DNA of 64,000 bases. It comes from Candidatus Pelagisphaera phototrophica (GTDB taxonomy: Bacteria > Verrucomicrobiota > Verrucomicrobiia > Opitutales > Opitutaceae). The stretch spans positions 930,001-994,000 of the forward strand of contig NZ_CP076039.1 of NCBI RefSeq assembly GCF_014529625.1. Reading direction: 5' to 3'. This document shows positions 4,092-9,269 of the stretch, in pieces. The notes below the pieces were generated by a model. The model was given only the letters and a program-made list of their open reading frames with translations. It was not told the origin of the DNA and did not search any database. Each line of letters starts with the position of its first letter. The stretch's first letter is position 1. The position numbers were made by a program, and so were the translations under genes.

Positions 4092-5009
4092 CTATTCGAT
4101 TTCGAAATCGGCAATACCGTGTGATTCCGCGTTTCGGGATGCATATTCCGCTGCCAGTCGAACGGTTTCCACTATGCCTGTTTCGGGATGGTTGACAATT
4201 CCGTTTAGCAAGGTTGCAAAGAATACGTCGCCGCAGCCTATGGGAGAGACGCATTTGGTGAGTCTAGGCTGAATACTGACGCAAGATTCATTTTTGATTT
4301 TGATCCAAATCGGGTTCTCTCCATCGGTAATGATCCATTGAGGACAGTCGCACGTGGCCTCGATTTGGTCCAATAGTGAATCTGTGGGCGAATCGCTTAC
4401 ATCATGGTCGAAGAACATTTCCAGTTCATCCCGATTGATCTTCGCTAAAGCAGGGGATTGCTGGACGAAACCTTTGAGTCCTGGGCCATAGGTGTCTACT
4501 GCCAATTCGACGAATTCTTCTCTTCGGCTGAGCCAATCTCTAAGAGGGTCCCAAGTCTCAGAGTCCCAATTGGGAAAGACGCCGCAAACCGCTAATAGAT
4601 AGGGCCTGTCTAGTTTAGACAGGTATTCAACGCAATCGTGCACGGCTCGTTTGGAAACCTGGCAGTCTAACCCGAGGATGGAGATTTCTTTGCTCCCAGG
4701 TGATCGAATGATCGAACCGGATCGCGTCACGCAGTCAGTTGTGAACGCCTGGAATGGAATGTTTTCCGCTTCAAGCGATTTTGTGCACGACGGCCCGAAC
4801 GATCCGCCTGGAAAACAGACTGCAGTTGTTTCGGCATCGAGGTGTTGAAGCATCTTAGAGACGTTTATTCCTTTTCCTCCCACTTGAAAACGTTCTTTGG
4901 TAGCTCTGCTTGTTTTGCCCGGTCCACAATCGCCCACGTAGTAGGTTGTCTCCGCTACGAGGTTGGCTGTGAGCGTTACGATTGGCATTTTTGAATGGGA
5001 GAGGCTCAT
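4092..5009 (-). CDS. PfkB-family sugar-phosphate kinase (1-phosphofructokinase-like)
   Basis: 305 residues of the ribokinase/PfkB fold. FQVGGKGINVSKMLQHL is the first PfkB signature, in the form typical of 1-phosphofructokinase/tagatose-6-phosphate kinase. Near the C-terminus SPIGCGDVFFATLLNG replaces the usual GAGD anion-hole motif with GCGD but keeps the catalytic aspartate. The probable reaction is ATP-dependent phosphorylation of a hexose phosphate; substrate cannot be fixed from sequence. The listed ATG (5009) precedes a second in-frame ATG at 4988 (MPIVTLTANLV) that fits the family N-terminus better. The gene is divergent from the DNA glycosylase gene with about 40 bases between starts. 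No PTS genes are adjacent. Confidence 0.8.
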   Translation of the reverse strand: MSLSHSKMPIVTLTANLVAETTYYVGDCGPGKTSRATKERFQVGGKGINVSKMLQHLDAETTAVCFPGGSFGPSCTKSLEAENIPFQAFTTDCVTRSGSIIRSPGSKEISILGLDCQVSKRAVHDCVEYLSKLDRPYLLAVCGVFPNWDSETWDPLRDWLSRREEFVELAVDTYGPGLKGFVQQSPALAKINRDELEMFFDHDVSDSPTDSLLDQIEATCDCPQWIITDGENPIWIKIKNESCVSIQPRLTKCVSPIGCGDVFFATLLNGIVNHPETGIVETVRLAAEYASRNAESHGIADFEIE

Positions 5010-5047
5010 TGTGGCAAAATCTATTTGAGAAAGGGAAAGGAATTAGA

Positions 5048-5581
5048 ATGGTGGCCAAGATGAGAAAGCTTGTCGAAGCAGATTTTAATTCACGTGATAC
5101 CCTGATGTTGGCCCGGGGACTATTGGGGAAACATCTCGTAATTCGCTCGGAGGACCGAGAGCTTTCTCATATAATCACGGAAGTCGAAGCCTATGACGGA
5201 CCGGAGGACTTGGCCTGCCACGCTAGCAAAGGCAGAACGCTTCGCACCGAGCCTCTTTTTGGGTCTCCAGGGTGCTGGTATGTCTACCTCTGCTATGGGA
5301 TGCATGAGATGCTCAACTTAGTCACAGGCCCGGTTGACTATCCGGCGGCGATCTTGATCCGAGGACTGGACGCGGTTTCGGGCCCTGGCAGGCTGACCAA
5401 GCGATTGGGAGTGGGTCGCCGTTTCAACTCGATGCCGGCGAACACTGAAACCGGAATGTGGCTTGTGGACCGAGGACTTCCGGTTGAAGAGGCCAGCGTC
5501 CGGGCGACTCCCCGAATTGGCGTTGACTACGCGGGAGAGGATTGGGCGAATCGGCCCTATCGGTTTGTTCTAGAACATTAG
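5048..5581 (+). CDS. 3-methyladenine DNA glycosylase (AAG/MPG family)
   Basis: About 177 residues from ATG at 5048, which follows an AAAGGGAAAGGA ribosome-binding site; the upstream ATG at 4982 would overlap the divergent kinase gene and is less likely. The protein removes alkylated purines to start base-excision repair. Family motifs are LARGLLGKHLV, ITEVEAYDGPEDLACHASKG (catalytic Glu), the WYVYLCYGMHEMLNLVTG strand and AAILIRG, then GPGRLTKRLGV. Length is normal for bacterial AAG-like enzymes. The stop overlaps the end of the convergent DUF3108 gene by four bases. The family is clear. Confidence 0.93.
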   Translation: MVAKMRKLVEADFNSRDTLMLARGLLGKHLVIRSEDRELSHIITEVEAYDGPEDLACHASKGRTLRTEPLFGSPGCWYVYLCYGMHEMLNLVTGPVDYPAAILIRGLDAVSGPGRLTKRLGVGRRFNSMPANTETGMWLVDRGLPVEEASVRATPRIGVDYAGEDWANRPYRFVLEH

Positions 5582-6501
5582 TTCGAGCTAGACTGAGCCA
5601 AGATCGGGATATCGTTTAATGTGAACGCCTCGAGCCGCATGGATGCGGTACCGATGGACGTTTTAACGTCGAGTCGTAAGGGAATGCGGCGATCGTCGGC
5701 AGATACCCAAACAGCCATTTTACCTCCCTCTCTGAAGATCTTGCTCTGAGGATAGGCGGATACCGGCTCCACGCGAAAGGCCTTGATCTTCCCAAATTGG
5801 GTGGTGATGGTTTCGGTTCCTTTAGCTTCCATTTCAATCAGGTAGAAGCGGCCGTTCGAGCTGATGAAAAGTGGATAAATACTCCCTTTCTCCAGTTTCC
5901 ATCCACGAATTTGGAGAATGGCAGAGGAGTAGTCAAGGGGTGCCGCGTAGGGTAAATCTTTGATCTGGTTCTTTTCCGGTCTCAGTTTATCTACGTGATT
6001 CATTTTCCCGGTCTCAAAGTTGAAACGGGTGATGGTTTCCTTTTCGTTGGATTGGCCCTCGTCGGTGACTCTGTTTTCGAGAATTCGTCCCTCCGTCGAA
6101 TCAAGAAGGGTATAGCCCTTAAGCATGAGGGGAAAGACGGCCTTTATGAGACCTGTTGTGCGGGCTTCCGTTTTTACCTCCAGTAACGAAGGGTTTGAAT
6201 GGTTAGGGTCTTCGGTAGAAATTACGATTTCCGCTACCTTTCGAAAAATTCCCCATTGTCCTCGAAACTGGAAGCGCTCCCCTGTATTGAATCCGTCGGA
6301 AGTTTTTTTTGAGTCAGGAAACTCGCGTTCGGGCCAAACGATTTCCTTTGGCAGTTTGGCTTCTGTGTCTTCCCTGATCTCGTTCGGGTTGATTGCGAAT
6401 GAACTGGTGGAGAAAACCGATAGTAGGAGACACGCAATGAACCCGCATTTTGCATTCAAATGAGGTTTAAGGAGCGAAATTTGGAATCTTCTCTCAAGCA
6501 T
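5578..6501 (-). CDS. Exported DUF3108 domain protein
   Basis: 307 residues. The N-terminus is basic followed by a hydrophobic run (CGFIACLLLSVFSTSSFA), a plausible signal peptide cut before INPNE. The mature part from GERFQFRGQWGIFRK to MRLEAF matches the DUF3108 beta-rich fold: repeated strands, KAFRVEP and ADDRRIPLRL near the end. Such proteins are periplasmic or outer-membrane associated, with no assigned biochemical function. The gene is convergent with the glycosylase gene (4-base overlap) and lies 70 bases downstream of the exonuclease-ligase fusion on the same strand, so the two may share a transcript. Confidence 0.78.
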   Translation of the reverse strand: MLERRFQISLLKPHLNAKCGFIACLLLSVFSTSSFAINPNEIREDTEAKLPKEIVWPEREFPDSKKTSDGFNTGERFQFRGQWGIFRKVAEIVISTEDPNHSNPSLLEVKTEARTTGLIKAVFPLMLKGYTLLDSTEGRILENRVTDEGQSNEKETITRFNFETGKMNHVDKLRPEKNQIKDLPYAAPLDYSSAILQIRGWKLEKGSIYPLFISSNGRFYLIEMEAKGTETITTQFGKIKAFRVEPVSAYPQSKIFREGGKMAVWVSADDRRIPLRLDVKTSIGTASMRLEAFTLNDIPILAQSSSN

Positions 6502-6572: not shown

Positions 6573-8843
6573 TTATTTCAGCGAATACCAGGAAGGTTGC
6601 AAAGACAACGGATCATACCTTTTAGTTGCATCCTTTATAATCAAACCGTCATTTCCTCGATTTTGGGAGTCTCGGAGCAGTGATGGCAGCTTATCTGTGG
6701 AATCGACTTTCTGGACAGGAGAGATCCGGAGCCGGAGATTCACGGAAAAGGTGTCTAGCTCCCGCCTTCGACGGTTTAGAGGAAGGTCGAGAAGGGTGTC
6801 CCCATTGCACCAAAAAAGATCGAACAACCAGAGAAGTGTATCGACATCCTCCCCGATGAAAAGATCCTCGACCGGCCGGTTCAGGCGCATTTCCAAGTCG
6901 CTGTAAGGAAGCGGGCGCTCTTTTTTCCACGCAACCAGTGTGCCGTCTGCAATATAGTCCTGTGGGATCAAACGGGCTGATTCGGCAATCTCAGGAAACT
7001 GGTGGGTGATGCGCTTTCCCTCTGCGTCGAATAGCTCGACTCGATCGTCCACTTTATGGATTTGGCACCGTAGCCCATCGTGAAGCTCCTCGACCCAAAT
7101 CGGCGACTGAAACTGGGATAGAAACTCGAAGTCCATATCCTCCTTTGCCGGCTTTTCCAGTTTCAGAGGAAAGAACAGTTGCAAAGGGATGTAGTCGAGC
7201 ATGCGGTCGATCGTCGCGTTCGCAACGCGATTGAGGTCGGCACAGCGTAGATTGGCTCGCCGAACCGCTTCGATGGGTGCTTCGAACCGCTTGGCCAAGC
7301 CCTCCTCTATGACGGACTCTTCGATGGCATTTCCCCGGTTGGAGAGCACGAGGTCAGAAAGCGATTTTCCCTCCCGAGGATCTAGTTTTCGATAGGCTTC
7401 GGACAGAAGGGAATGCTGAAAAACGGGGTTGGGCGACTTCTCCAAAGTATCGAAGAGAACGCGAAAATTTTCGAGTGTCTGCCCGATTTGCGGGTTTGGG
7501 TTGAGGAGTGATAGTAAGGCGGCCCAGGGATCGGCCTCGTGTTGGCGGACCCGTTTGTAGTCGGTCTCGTTTGCGTTCGCGGCGAAGAGGATTGCCTGGC
7601 GATTGGTTTTGGTGGTGATGGTGAGGCTCCGCTGGGAGGCCCGGGCAAATGCGTGTCCAGACAGGAGTAGGGCGGCGATGGCAACATCCGTTGGGCCAAG
7701 ATTGGCAAAATACTCACTGACGATTTCTACCTTTCGCGTGTGGCTCTCGGCTTTGACGGCATTTTCTTTTGCATTGGTAAAGCTCGAGATCGAATGCGGC
7801 GATACATTGGGGTGGCTCTCGGGCTCAGAGGTGCGGGGTTTCGACTTTGGAGGTGGATTGATTGGCAACTCCAACCCCAGCTGGTTCTGGGCACCCAATT
7901 CGAGGGCATTGATACCGCGATCCCGCAAGGTCTGGGCAAACTCCTGGGCGAAACCGTGAGTTGTGTAGACGATCTTTGGGTCCACACGAGCGACGAATTC
8001 GAGCAAATCCAGAAAGTCCGCGTGGTCCGAAAGGGGAAAGGCCCGATCGGAGCCTTTAGAGTGGTGGCGATATGAGTCCAGAGCCCAGCCCGAAAGCATC
8101 GCGGTACGGTGGTTGCGGATTCCGGTTAGCCATTTCGAGTCTTTTGGAAGAGGAGGCGAGATAACGACGCATTCTTTAGCCTTTTCATATCTGAATTCTG
8201 AGTACGCAGGAAACGTAAAACCGATTTCCTCGCATGCCTGAGTCATCTTCAGTACTTGTGGATGCAGGAGGATTTTCAGACCACTGCCTTCAAGGCATTT
8301 CAACGCCTCTTGAGCTTTTCCCAGGCTGTATCCGAAAAGCACGGGAACGTGATCATCATCTATCGTTTCATGGCAGAATTGCAGGATCTCCTTCTTGACC
8401 TCGGAAATAGGTGGAAAAGCGTATTTAGGAACGCCATACGTAGTTTCAATAATCAATGTATCTGTTTTGGGTACGATGCACGCCTCTGCGGTTAGATTGG
8501 GCCCAAGCTTAAAGTCGCCCGTATAGAGGAGCGTCTCACCTTTTTTTTCAAGAAGTAGCATAGACGACCCTGGTATGTGGCCTGCGGGATAGAGCGCTCC
8601 CTTTACATTAGGGCTGATCTCGAAAGGTTCCTGGAATCCATAGGTTTTCCACTTCCGCTTTCCCGGCATGCGGGCTTTCAGTAAGCGGGCAGTTCCTTCT
8701 GAGCAGAGCACCGAAGGGTGATTGCCAAAATGGTCGAAGTGGGCGTGGGAAATGAAAACGTTTGAAGCGGGCTTCCGCGCGTCCAGATGCCAGTCGATTT
8801 CGGGCAGGAAAATCCCGTTCTTTTTCTCAACGACCCAACTCAT
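6573..8843 (-). CDS. Metallo-beta-lactamase exonuclease fused to a DNA-ligase-like domain lacking the catalytic lysine
   Basis: 756 residues. Residues 1-325 form an MBL-fold/beta-CASP nuclease of the ligase-associated exonuclease type: SHAHFDH at 32-38, GHIPGS, LYTGDFKLGP, ETTYG, SDHADF and THGF. A proline-rich linker (about 328-345) leads to an ATP-dependent DNA ligase region: N-terminal helical domain (375-545), then adenylation domain. The nucleophile motif K-x-DG-x-R appears as E586-L587-H588-D589-G590-L-R, so leucine (codon CTT) sits where lysine should be. FDLFWCNGDTLLDLPLNRRR (motif III) and DGLIIKD (motif IV) remain. The protein ends just after motif V (SWYSLK) with no OB domain. Ligase activity is therefore doubtful; the nuclease half looks intact. 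DoxX gene 6 bases upstream. Confidence 0.85.
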   Translation of the reverse strand: MSWVVEKKNGIFLPEIDWHLDARKPASNVFISHAHFDHFGNHPSVLCSEGTARLLKARMPGKRKWKTYGFQEPFEISPNVKGALYPAGHIPGSSMLLLEKKGETLLYTGDFKLGPNLTAEACIVPKTDTLIIETTYGVPKYAFPPISEVKKEILQFCHETIDDDHVPVLFGYSLGKAQEALKCLEGSGLKILLHPQVLKMTQACEEIGFTFPAYSEFRYEKAKECVVISPPLPKDSKWLTGIRNHRTAMLSGWALDSYRHHSKGSDRAFPLSDHADFLDLLEFVARVDPKIVYTTHGFAQEFAQTLRDRGINALELGAQNQLGLELPINPPPKSKPRTSEPESHPNVSPHSISSFTNAKENAVKAESHTRKVEIVSEYFANLGPTDVAIAALLLSGHAFARASQRSLTITTKTNRQAILFAANANETDYKRVRQHEADPWAALLSLLNPNPQIGQTLENFRVLFDTLEKSPNPVFQHSLLSEAYRKLDPREGKSLSDLVLSNRGNAIEESVIEEGLAKRFEAPIEAVRRANLRCADLNRVANATIDRMLDYIPLQLFFPLKLEKPAKEDMDFEFLSQFQSPIWVEELHDGLRCQIHKVDDRVELFDAEGKRITHQFPEIAESARLIPQDYIADGTLVAWKKERPLPYSDLEMRLNRPVEDLFIGEDVDTLLWLFDLFWCNGDTLLDLPLNRRRRELDTFSVNLRLRISPVQKVDSTDKLPSLLRDSQNRGNDGLIIKDATKRYDPLSLQPSWYSLK

Positions 8844-8849
8844 ACTGTG

Positions 8850-9269
8850 CTAGACGCCACGTCGATCGAGGCTGAGTCGTCCAGGACCGATGAATACAAT
8901 TGAAAGTAGAGTAAGGTTGACCTGAGCGTACACTACCATGACGTTGTCGATTTCGGGGCTGTGGATAATTAAATTAGCCAGAGCAAAGCCGACGATGGCG
9001 GAAAGGAGCAGCCCGATTCCCCGGGTGAATATTCCCAGAATGAGGAATAATCCACCGACCGACTGAATCACCACGGATGCGATCCCAAAAACGAGGTGGA
9101 AGTACGTTATCCCGATCAGAGAAACGGCGCTTCCAATTCTTTCCCAGCTGTCTGGACCTTCCGCCCAAAGCGGGAAGCCGTGGTAGGCGATGAGACCGCC
9201 AACTCCAATGCGCAGGATTAAAACACCAAAAAAATCGAATCTGCTTAAGCCAGTAAGGGCAACCTTCAT
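8850..9269 (-). CDS. DoxX-family membrane protein
   Basis: 139 residues with four hydrophobic segments. It contains LRIGVGGLIAYHGFPLWAEG after the first segment and ends in FIGPGRLSLDRR, the typical DoxX tail. These are inner-membrane proteins of uncertain role; some members are linked to redox or thiol stress. The gene lies 6 bases upstream of the exonuclease-ligase gene on the same strand, so they are very probably co-transcribed. The 240 bases upstream of its start hold nothing else recognisable. Confidence 0.85.
   Translation of the reverse strand: MKVALTGLSRFDFFGVLILRIGVGGLIAYHGFPLWAEGPDSWERIGSAVSLIGITYFHLVFGIASVVIQSVGGLFLILGIFTRGIGLLLSAIVGFALANLIIHSPEIDNVMVVYAQVNLTLLSIVFIGPGRLSLDRRGV

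Follow-up and report, generated by a model that had tools for sequence, protein, structure and literature searches.

An exonuclease-ligase fusion of Opitutaceae whose ligase half lacks its catalytic residues and OB domain

Within the window, a 64,000-nucleotide stretch of the Candidatus Pelagisphaera phototrophica genome, one gene joins an MBL/beta-CASP nuclease to a DNA ligase in which the nucleophilic lysine is replaced and the OB domain is missing, which raises the question of what such a ligase half is kept for. On balance, we think it probable that the gene is an Opitutaceae exonuclease-LigB fusion, inherited vertically, in which the OB domain and the ligase chemistry have been lost, and that its product now works as a nuclease with a pseudo-ligase half that positions or restrains cutting. 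The gene and its parts lie in the window as follows.

6573..8843, minus strand: whole gene, beta-CASP nuclease plus pseudo-ligase (ATG start, 756 aa, TAA stop)
7869..8843, minus strand: MBL/beta-CASP nuclease, residues 1-325, catalytic residues intact (TIGR04122, beta-CASP fold, alignment)
7749..7868, minus strand: fast-evolving linker, residues 326-365, largely of low confidence in the model
7149..7748, minus strand: ligase DNA-binding domain (DBD), residues 366-565 (DNA_ligase_A_N below cut-off; structure match)
6576..7148, minus strand: ligase adenylation (nucleotidyltransferase, NT) domain, residues 566-756, catalytic residues gone (PF01068)
7083..7085, minus strand: codon CTT for L587, the site of the nucleophilic lysine in longer relatives (alignment)
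6939..6947, minus strand: motif III, D633-G-T635 replacing DGE (alignment)
6633..6650, minus strand: motif IV, D732-G-L-I-I-K737 replacing EGLMxK (alignment)
6576..6590, minus strand: motif V, W752-Y-S-L-K756 replacing WLKLK, the C-terminal end, with no OB domain (alignment)

The adenylation domain matches PF01068 at 91.6 bits against a cut-off of 26.2, and Pfam DNA_ligase_A_N scores 17.8 bits (under its cut-off) in the window protein and 52.5 bits (over it) in the ortholog from genome G355. For the nuclease, TIGR04122 gives 208.9 bits and falls short of its curated cut-off of 325, a lineage-wide shortfall, because six relatives (three intact fusions, two truncated forms and one stand-alone exonuclease) also score 208-223. 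Neither LigB model reaches its cut-off in the window protein (TIGR04120, 89.1 bits against 400; TIGR00574, 91.2 bits against 217.8), and three intact fusions score 325-339 with the former, below the cut-off, and 262-272 with the latter, above it. In the AlphaFold2 model (mean pLDDT 88), residues 1-318 match beta-CASP enzymes (Z 27.3-30.6 among the matches listed) and residues 350-756 match archaeal DNA ligases (best Z 36.6, rmsd 3.8, 405 aligned residues), so that, as far as the predicted structure goes, the DNA-binding fold and the adenylation fold are both kept; the relative placement of the domains is uncertain, with a pTM of 0.54. The linker has pLDDT values below 50 at residues 319-344 and a pairwise omega of 0.2-1.6 in five truncated pairs.

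To see which residues the ligase half has lost, we used an alignment of 13 truncated forms, seven from the window's genus (g1) and six from a second genus (g91), with 20 longer fusions, and called a position invariant where at least 95% of the 20 longer rows agreed; ligases are termed working or intact here from their sequences alone. The locus L055 (contig end, lysine present) was left out of the alignment and L021-L036 out of the analysis, while L012, whose contig ends before motif IV, was counted for the lysine and left out of the rate, charge and omega comparisons. Motifs I, III, IV and V are named after the usual scheme for ligases. Motif I of the window protein reads E585-E-L587-H-D-G-L-R592, with the leucine codon at 7085-7083, and the lysine at site 587 is found in 20 of 20 longer rows and in none of the truncated ones, which carry leucine (six) or arginine (one) in g1 and glutamate in all six g91 rows. 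The motif III glutamate at site 635 follows the same course (20/20 longer, 0/13 truncated; T635 in the window), as does the motif IV glutamate at site 732, present in all 19 longer rows that reach it and in 0 of 13 truncated rows (D732 in the window). For motif V, Lys754 is replaced in 7/7 g1 rows (S754 in the window) and a lysine stands there in two of the six g91 rows; Lys756 is kept in 5/7 g1 rows, including the window's, and in 0/6 of g91.

All 13 truncated forms stop no more than about ten residues from motif V, and the OB domain is found in none of them and in 19 of the 20 longer rows; the fetched loci of L014 and L015 stop inside that domain. In the window protein the chain finishes after the last strand of the NT domain. 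The OB profile PF04679 has no match anywhere in the window's one-contig, 4.086-Mb genome and is absent from 11 of the 13 genomes that carry truncated forms; G251 and G320, which do match it, have it only in separate ligases. A candidate explanation, that the OB domain had been split off into another frame, was rejected: visual inspection of the translated frames showed no OB-like stretch, either in the gap of 71 bp or within 177 bases past the stop of the 13 truncated rows, and PF04679 is missing from the window genome.

The nuclease half has fared differently. H33, H35, D37, H38, H89, D110, E133, H194, H274 and H296 are all present in the alignment; HxHxDH, H89, D110, H274 and H296, the metal ligands expected of a TIGR04122 nuclease, are among them. 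Among 121 nuclease positions invariant in the longer rows, 91 are kept in 13/13 truncated rows and none is lost in all of them, whereas the corresponding numbers kept throughout are 7/46 for the DBD and 23/82 for the NT domain, a result that we count against our main reading. Judged from the alignment, the ligase chemistry is gone but that of the nuclease is retained, because the motif residues are lost and 0 of 121 nuclease positions are. These results bear out a sequence-only reading of the locus, which, without naming a strand, had reported intact MBL/beta-CASP residues in 1-325, a ligase motif reading L587-H-D-G-L-R with a CTT codon, and a chain that ends just after motif V without an OB domain.

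Part of the ligase pocket survives, with E585, G590, R592 and K737 kept in 13/13 truncated rows and D589 in 12/13; in working ligases, D589 and R592 presumably contact the nick termini and E585 the adenine. The window genome has no second ATP-dependent ligase, its only PF01068 match being this gene, and other PF01068 genes occur in two of the 13 genomes with truncated forms (G251 and G320). An NAD-dependent LigA scores over the cut-off once in the window genome and is over it in all 26 genomes checked. A second, weaker match to the NAD-ligase family, also over the cut-off, was seen in 13 of these 26 (G035, G315, G355, G272, G135, G251, G320, G190, G185, G334, G050, G126 and G306), and the one in G050 contains stops.

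Rates of change were compared with the topology held to the vertical history and are given as medians of 40 resamples. Ligase-domain change on the stems of both truncated groups is 4 to 8 times that of the nuclease, with ratios to the nuclease of 4.4 (DBD) and 4.5 (NT) for g1 and 8.2 and 6.0 for g91, versus 1.6 and 0.88 on the stem of the other intact rows; if the 3′ halves had been exchanged between genera, a history weighed below, these stems would read otherwise. Within the g1 crown, the NT/nuclease ratio is 1.15 (95% 0.83-1.57) versus 1.12 in intact rows, and the DBD/nuclease ratio is 1.62 versus 1.58. The g91 crown, at 1.58 (95% 1.06-2.16) versus 1.12 for NT and 2.85 versus 1.58 for DBD, we count against the main reading. 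Codon-model omegas, which are rough since deep dS is saturated, are 0.075 (g1), 0.073 (g91), 0.090 (15 intact rows) and 0.059 (four intact g91/g85 rows) for the NT domain; in the same order they are 0.080, 0.124, 0.111 and 0.052 for the DBD, and 0.085, 0.054, 0.100 and 0.036 for the nuclease. The closest pair, the window protein and L001, differs by few changes; its omega is 0.148 in the NT domain and 0.341 in the nuclease.

Such a course is what would be expected of a domain freed from one function and later held by another constraint; it fits an active role and a folding need alike. That the dead half is a maintained pseudo-ligase under purifying selection is well supported by these rates, taken with the absence of Lys587, Glu635 and Glu732 from 13/13 truncated rows and of the OB domain. 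The sequence-only reading had used the same term, pseudo-ligase, which stands, and had proposed a DNA-binding scaffold or regulator for the nuclease. A scaffolding or regulatory role may still apply, but plain DNA binding by the NT domain is not favoured, since the domain is more acidic in the truncated forms: its net charge is -3 to -15 in the 13 truncated forms, -8 to 0 in the four nearest intact rows and -4 to +4 in the 15 others.

The surroundings of the gene suggest where it came from. Three neighbours in the window matter here.

8850..9269, minus strand: DoxX gene (PF07681), its stop two codons before the nuclease ATG and in the same frame
5578..6501, minus strand: DUF3108 gene (PF11306), the downstream neighbour
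4982-5581, plus strand: methylpurine-DNA glycosylase (MPG) gene, adjoining DUF3108 and near the fusion

The fusion's stop lies 71 bp from the next gene. The order DoxX, fusion, DUF3108, MPG, PfkB and then an IMP cyclohydrolase-like gene is common to the window and G184, the one g85 genome whose gene order was read, and G184 has a full-length ligase at the same locus; vertical descent from a gene of this kind is therefore the most likely origin of the window gene. MPG keeps its place in nine of ten g1/g85 neighbourhoods (the exception being G355) and DUF3108 in 10/10. In the window, DoxX and the fusion share a frame and are separated by one stop and two codons. In G355 (L085:3220-5925), DoxX and the nuclease-pseudo-ligase form one 901-aa open frame, which could mean that DoxX is naturally fused to the protein there or that the two are tightly coupled in translation.

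The earlier reading had also noted that the Lhr-type helicase and phosphoesterase of bacterial repair sets are missing here, and this extends to the whole genome (G000): we found no match to PdeM (TIGR04123) and no full-length Lhr-type gene with the TIGR04121 profile. The best match to the latter (E 7e-21) covers profile positions 14-354 out of 804, lies in a frame of 407 aa, and is in our reading a DEAD-box helicase. The earlier reading further stated that standard sets have the exonuclease and the ligase as separate genes. This generally holds, but in this family the full-length fusion occurs in many genera and is published (PMC10140301). Elsewhere in the family, Lhr stands beside the fusion in G035, G172, G135, G114, G013 and G216, and PdeM in G135, G035 and G013. 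Longer Lhr-type genes (frames of 1444-1481 aa) lie at other sites in G213, G190, G184 and G221, so that in those four genomes only the site beside the fusion is empty, and strong PdeM matches occur at other sites in G240 and G320. In G185, Lhr and PdeM lie between the fusion and DUF3108; as DUF3108 also follows PdeM in that cluster, it may belong to the repair set without having been recognised as a member.

Taken together, we favour the following course. The fusion gene was most likely passed down vertically. The sequences show that it has lost Lys587, Glu635, Glu732 and the OB domain, in both genera, that its nuclease residues are kept, and that the dead domain is under strong purifying selection; the DBD fold and the NT fold are retained. 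The protein would act as a nuclease, and the pseudo-ligase half, with part of its pocket kept, would dock either on duplex DNA with nicks or breaks, the former ligase substrate, or on the nuclease, thereby positioning or restraining its cutting; sealing would fall to the NAD-dependent LigA. The half may thus serve to position the substrate, to regulate the nuclease or to support it.

A somewhat unlikely but serious alternative is that the ligase half is a passive remnant, the late stage of a shrinking repair cluster in which Lhr and PdeM went from the site, then the ligase and in some strains the whole gene, so that the dead half is kept only to fold for the stability of the nuclease. In 12 of 14 neighbourhoods (9/9 in g1, 1/1 in g85 and 2/4 in g91), DUF3108 directly follows the fusion and neither Lhr nor PdeM separates them, which speaks for this alternative, and the burst of change on both stems and the mere 23/82 invariant NT positions kept in all 13 rows agree with it. 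Among ten g1 genomes, seven have an unbroken truncated gene, two have broken copies and one (G343, 85% complete) is without it; the gene is dispensable in some lineages, because two sister genomes carry these broken copies, and the tally also weighs against our main reading. The copy in G240 is broken by an internal deletion, and that in G299 (G299:C1 914488-916770, a one-contig genome) has frame breaks and in-frame stops, and could be a true pseudogene or the product of assembly errors. G240 also has a separate exonuclease, LigB and PdeM together on another contig (C13, about 99439-105128), which further fits a remnant; possibly the old system was replaced by another there. Against a passive remnant, many genomes of the family have exonucleases that stand alone, as judged from the range of the match and the length of the frame (L017-L020 were read), so the nuclease fold needs no ligase half; no nuclease-only form was found among ten g1 and eight g91 genomes. 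The uniform end of all 13 truncated forms close to motif V and an NT omega that resembles that of intact ligases also speak against it.

Returning to the reading of a retained regulatory half, we asked how often the ligase was lost. Family searches found matches in 146 of 177 genomes and in 173 of 200; reading was confined to the best loci, which makes the number of truncated forms a minimum, and many of the 173 matches cover the nuclease part only. Lysine-bearing longer fusions were seen in 15 genera, in 14 of which the frame enters the OB domain. The LigA tree, with 24 rows (G035 and G135 were left out, their longest frame evidently not being LigA by length and branch length), places g1 as sister to the intact genus g85 (99/99) and rejects a single clade of the genomes with truncated or broken copies, 15 of the 24 rows (p-AU 3e-6). 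The domain trees were built without L001, and their topology tests were chosen after the trees were seen. For the nuclease domain, a single truncated clade is rejected (p-AU 0.0075) and the truncated g91 group falls with intact g91 (99/94). Because the LigA and nuclease trees reject a single origin, we favour separate origins: two losses of the ligase, both at the same boundary, are probable.

The ligase domains give a different picture, with the truncated forms together in the DBD tree (96/87) and the NT tree (100/98). Two losses are the simpler reading of this conflict; it is unlikely, to our minds, that a single loss was followed by exchange of the 3′ half between the two genera. Beyond the NT tree, such an exchange would account for two residues that no intact row has: Leu746, found in every truncated row, and Gly609, found in most of them. 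It sits poorly with the lysine site, where the residue differs (leucine or arginine in g1, glutamate in g91), and with the nuclease tree, the LigA tree and the gene order, which follow vertical descent; g91 as a single clade is not rejected for either ligase domain (p 0.12 for DBD, 0.24 for NT). Exchange of the 3′ half would alter the number of origins, not the dead state.

It is very improbable that the protein is still a nucleotidyltransferase, with the nucleophile or the OB function supplied by an alternative residue or a partner. The kept pocket residues E585, G590, R592 and K737 would suit such an enzyme, as would one new lysine, at 577, that is common to the six g91 rows and absent from intact rows. 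The three catalytic residues are nonetheless absent from every truncated row, PF04679 is missing from the window genome, and no alignment column has a lysine in all seven g1 rows and in no intact row, so that no alternative lysine emerges for the window's genus. Finally, a sequencing error, an isolated mutation or a recent pseudogene is refuted and scarcely conceivable, since the loss of lysine and OB domain is common to six further g1 genomes (independent assemblies at 55-96% identity) and six g91 genomes, the frame is open, domain omegas are 0.05-0.34 in truncated pairs, and nothing in the window genome speaks for it.

The fusion itself is known. According to PMC10140301, an exonuclease-LigB fusion occurs in Opitutus terrae (OTER_RS15935) and in an Antarctic Dry Valley metagenome (DV-1-1-Nuc-Lig), with an MBL nuclease (RMMBL), a ligase DNA-binding domain and an adenylation domain in the same order as in the window protein; the DV-1-1 ligase half, expressed alone, sealed nicks, the nuclease half proved insoluble, and the role of the exonuclease module is described there as undetermined. 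Opitutus belongs to Opitutaceae, the family to which L001 and L002 are assigned in their records. Unlike the window protein, which has neither the OB domain nor the catalytic ligase residues, DV-1-1 has an OB domain and an active ligase half, and O. terrae keeps Lhr and a phosphodiesterase beside its fusion (PMC10140301). The bacterial repair cluster of LigB, Lhr-Core, MPE and Exo (Ejaz and Shuman 2018), as described in PMC10140301 and PMC8301817, includes the nuclease and the ligase in its set, and G185 has fusion, Lhr, PdeM and DUF3108 in a row; in the window genome, by contrast, no full-length Lhr, no PdeM and no working ATP-dependent ligase was found.

Outside bacteria, the middle domain of the poxvirus processivity factor A20 is described as an inactive DNA ligase (PMC11142717) and is thus likewise a natural pseudo-ligase retained as a structural part of a DNA enzyme; it differs in being viral, in belonging to a polymerase complex and in keeping its OB domain. 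Catalytically inactive mammalian DNA ligase IV still promotes repair (PMC9638927), but this protein is a complete end-joining ligase of eukaryotes that was inactivated by engineering. We found no earlier description of a bacterial exonuclease-ligase with a dead ligase half in the open-licence literature, which leaves out most subscription papers, and within what was searched the poxvirus subunit is the only other natural pseudo-ligase that we met.

We put forward more tentatively the possibility that, on at least two independent occasions, bacteria have turned the ligase half of a DNA-repair nuclease-ligase into a regulatory domain devoted to recognising nicks or ends. The OB domain would have gone at the same boundary each time and adenylation would have been given up, with part of the pocket retained. 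If true, a one-protein "cut and seal" machine would have become a "read and cut" machine. Full-length close relatives at the same locus in a sister genus offer a natural before-and-after comparison, and a lineage with the nuclease and a dead ligase makes it possible to test in what way the nuclease depends on the ligase fold.
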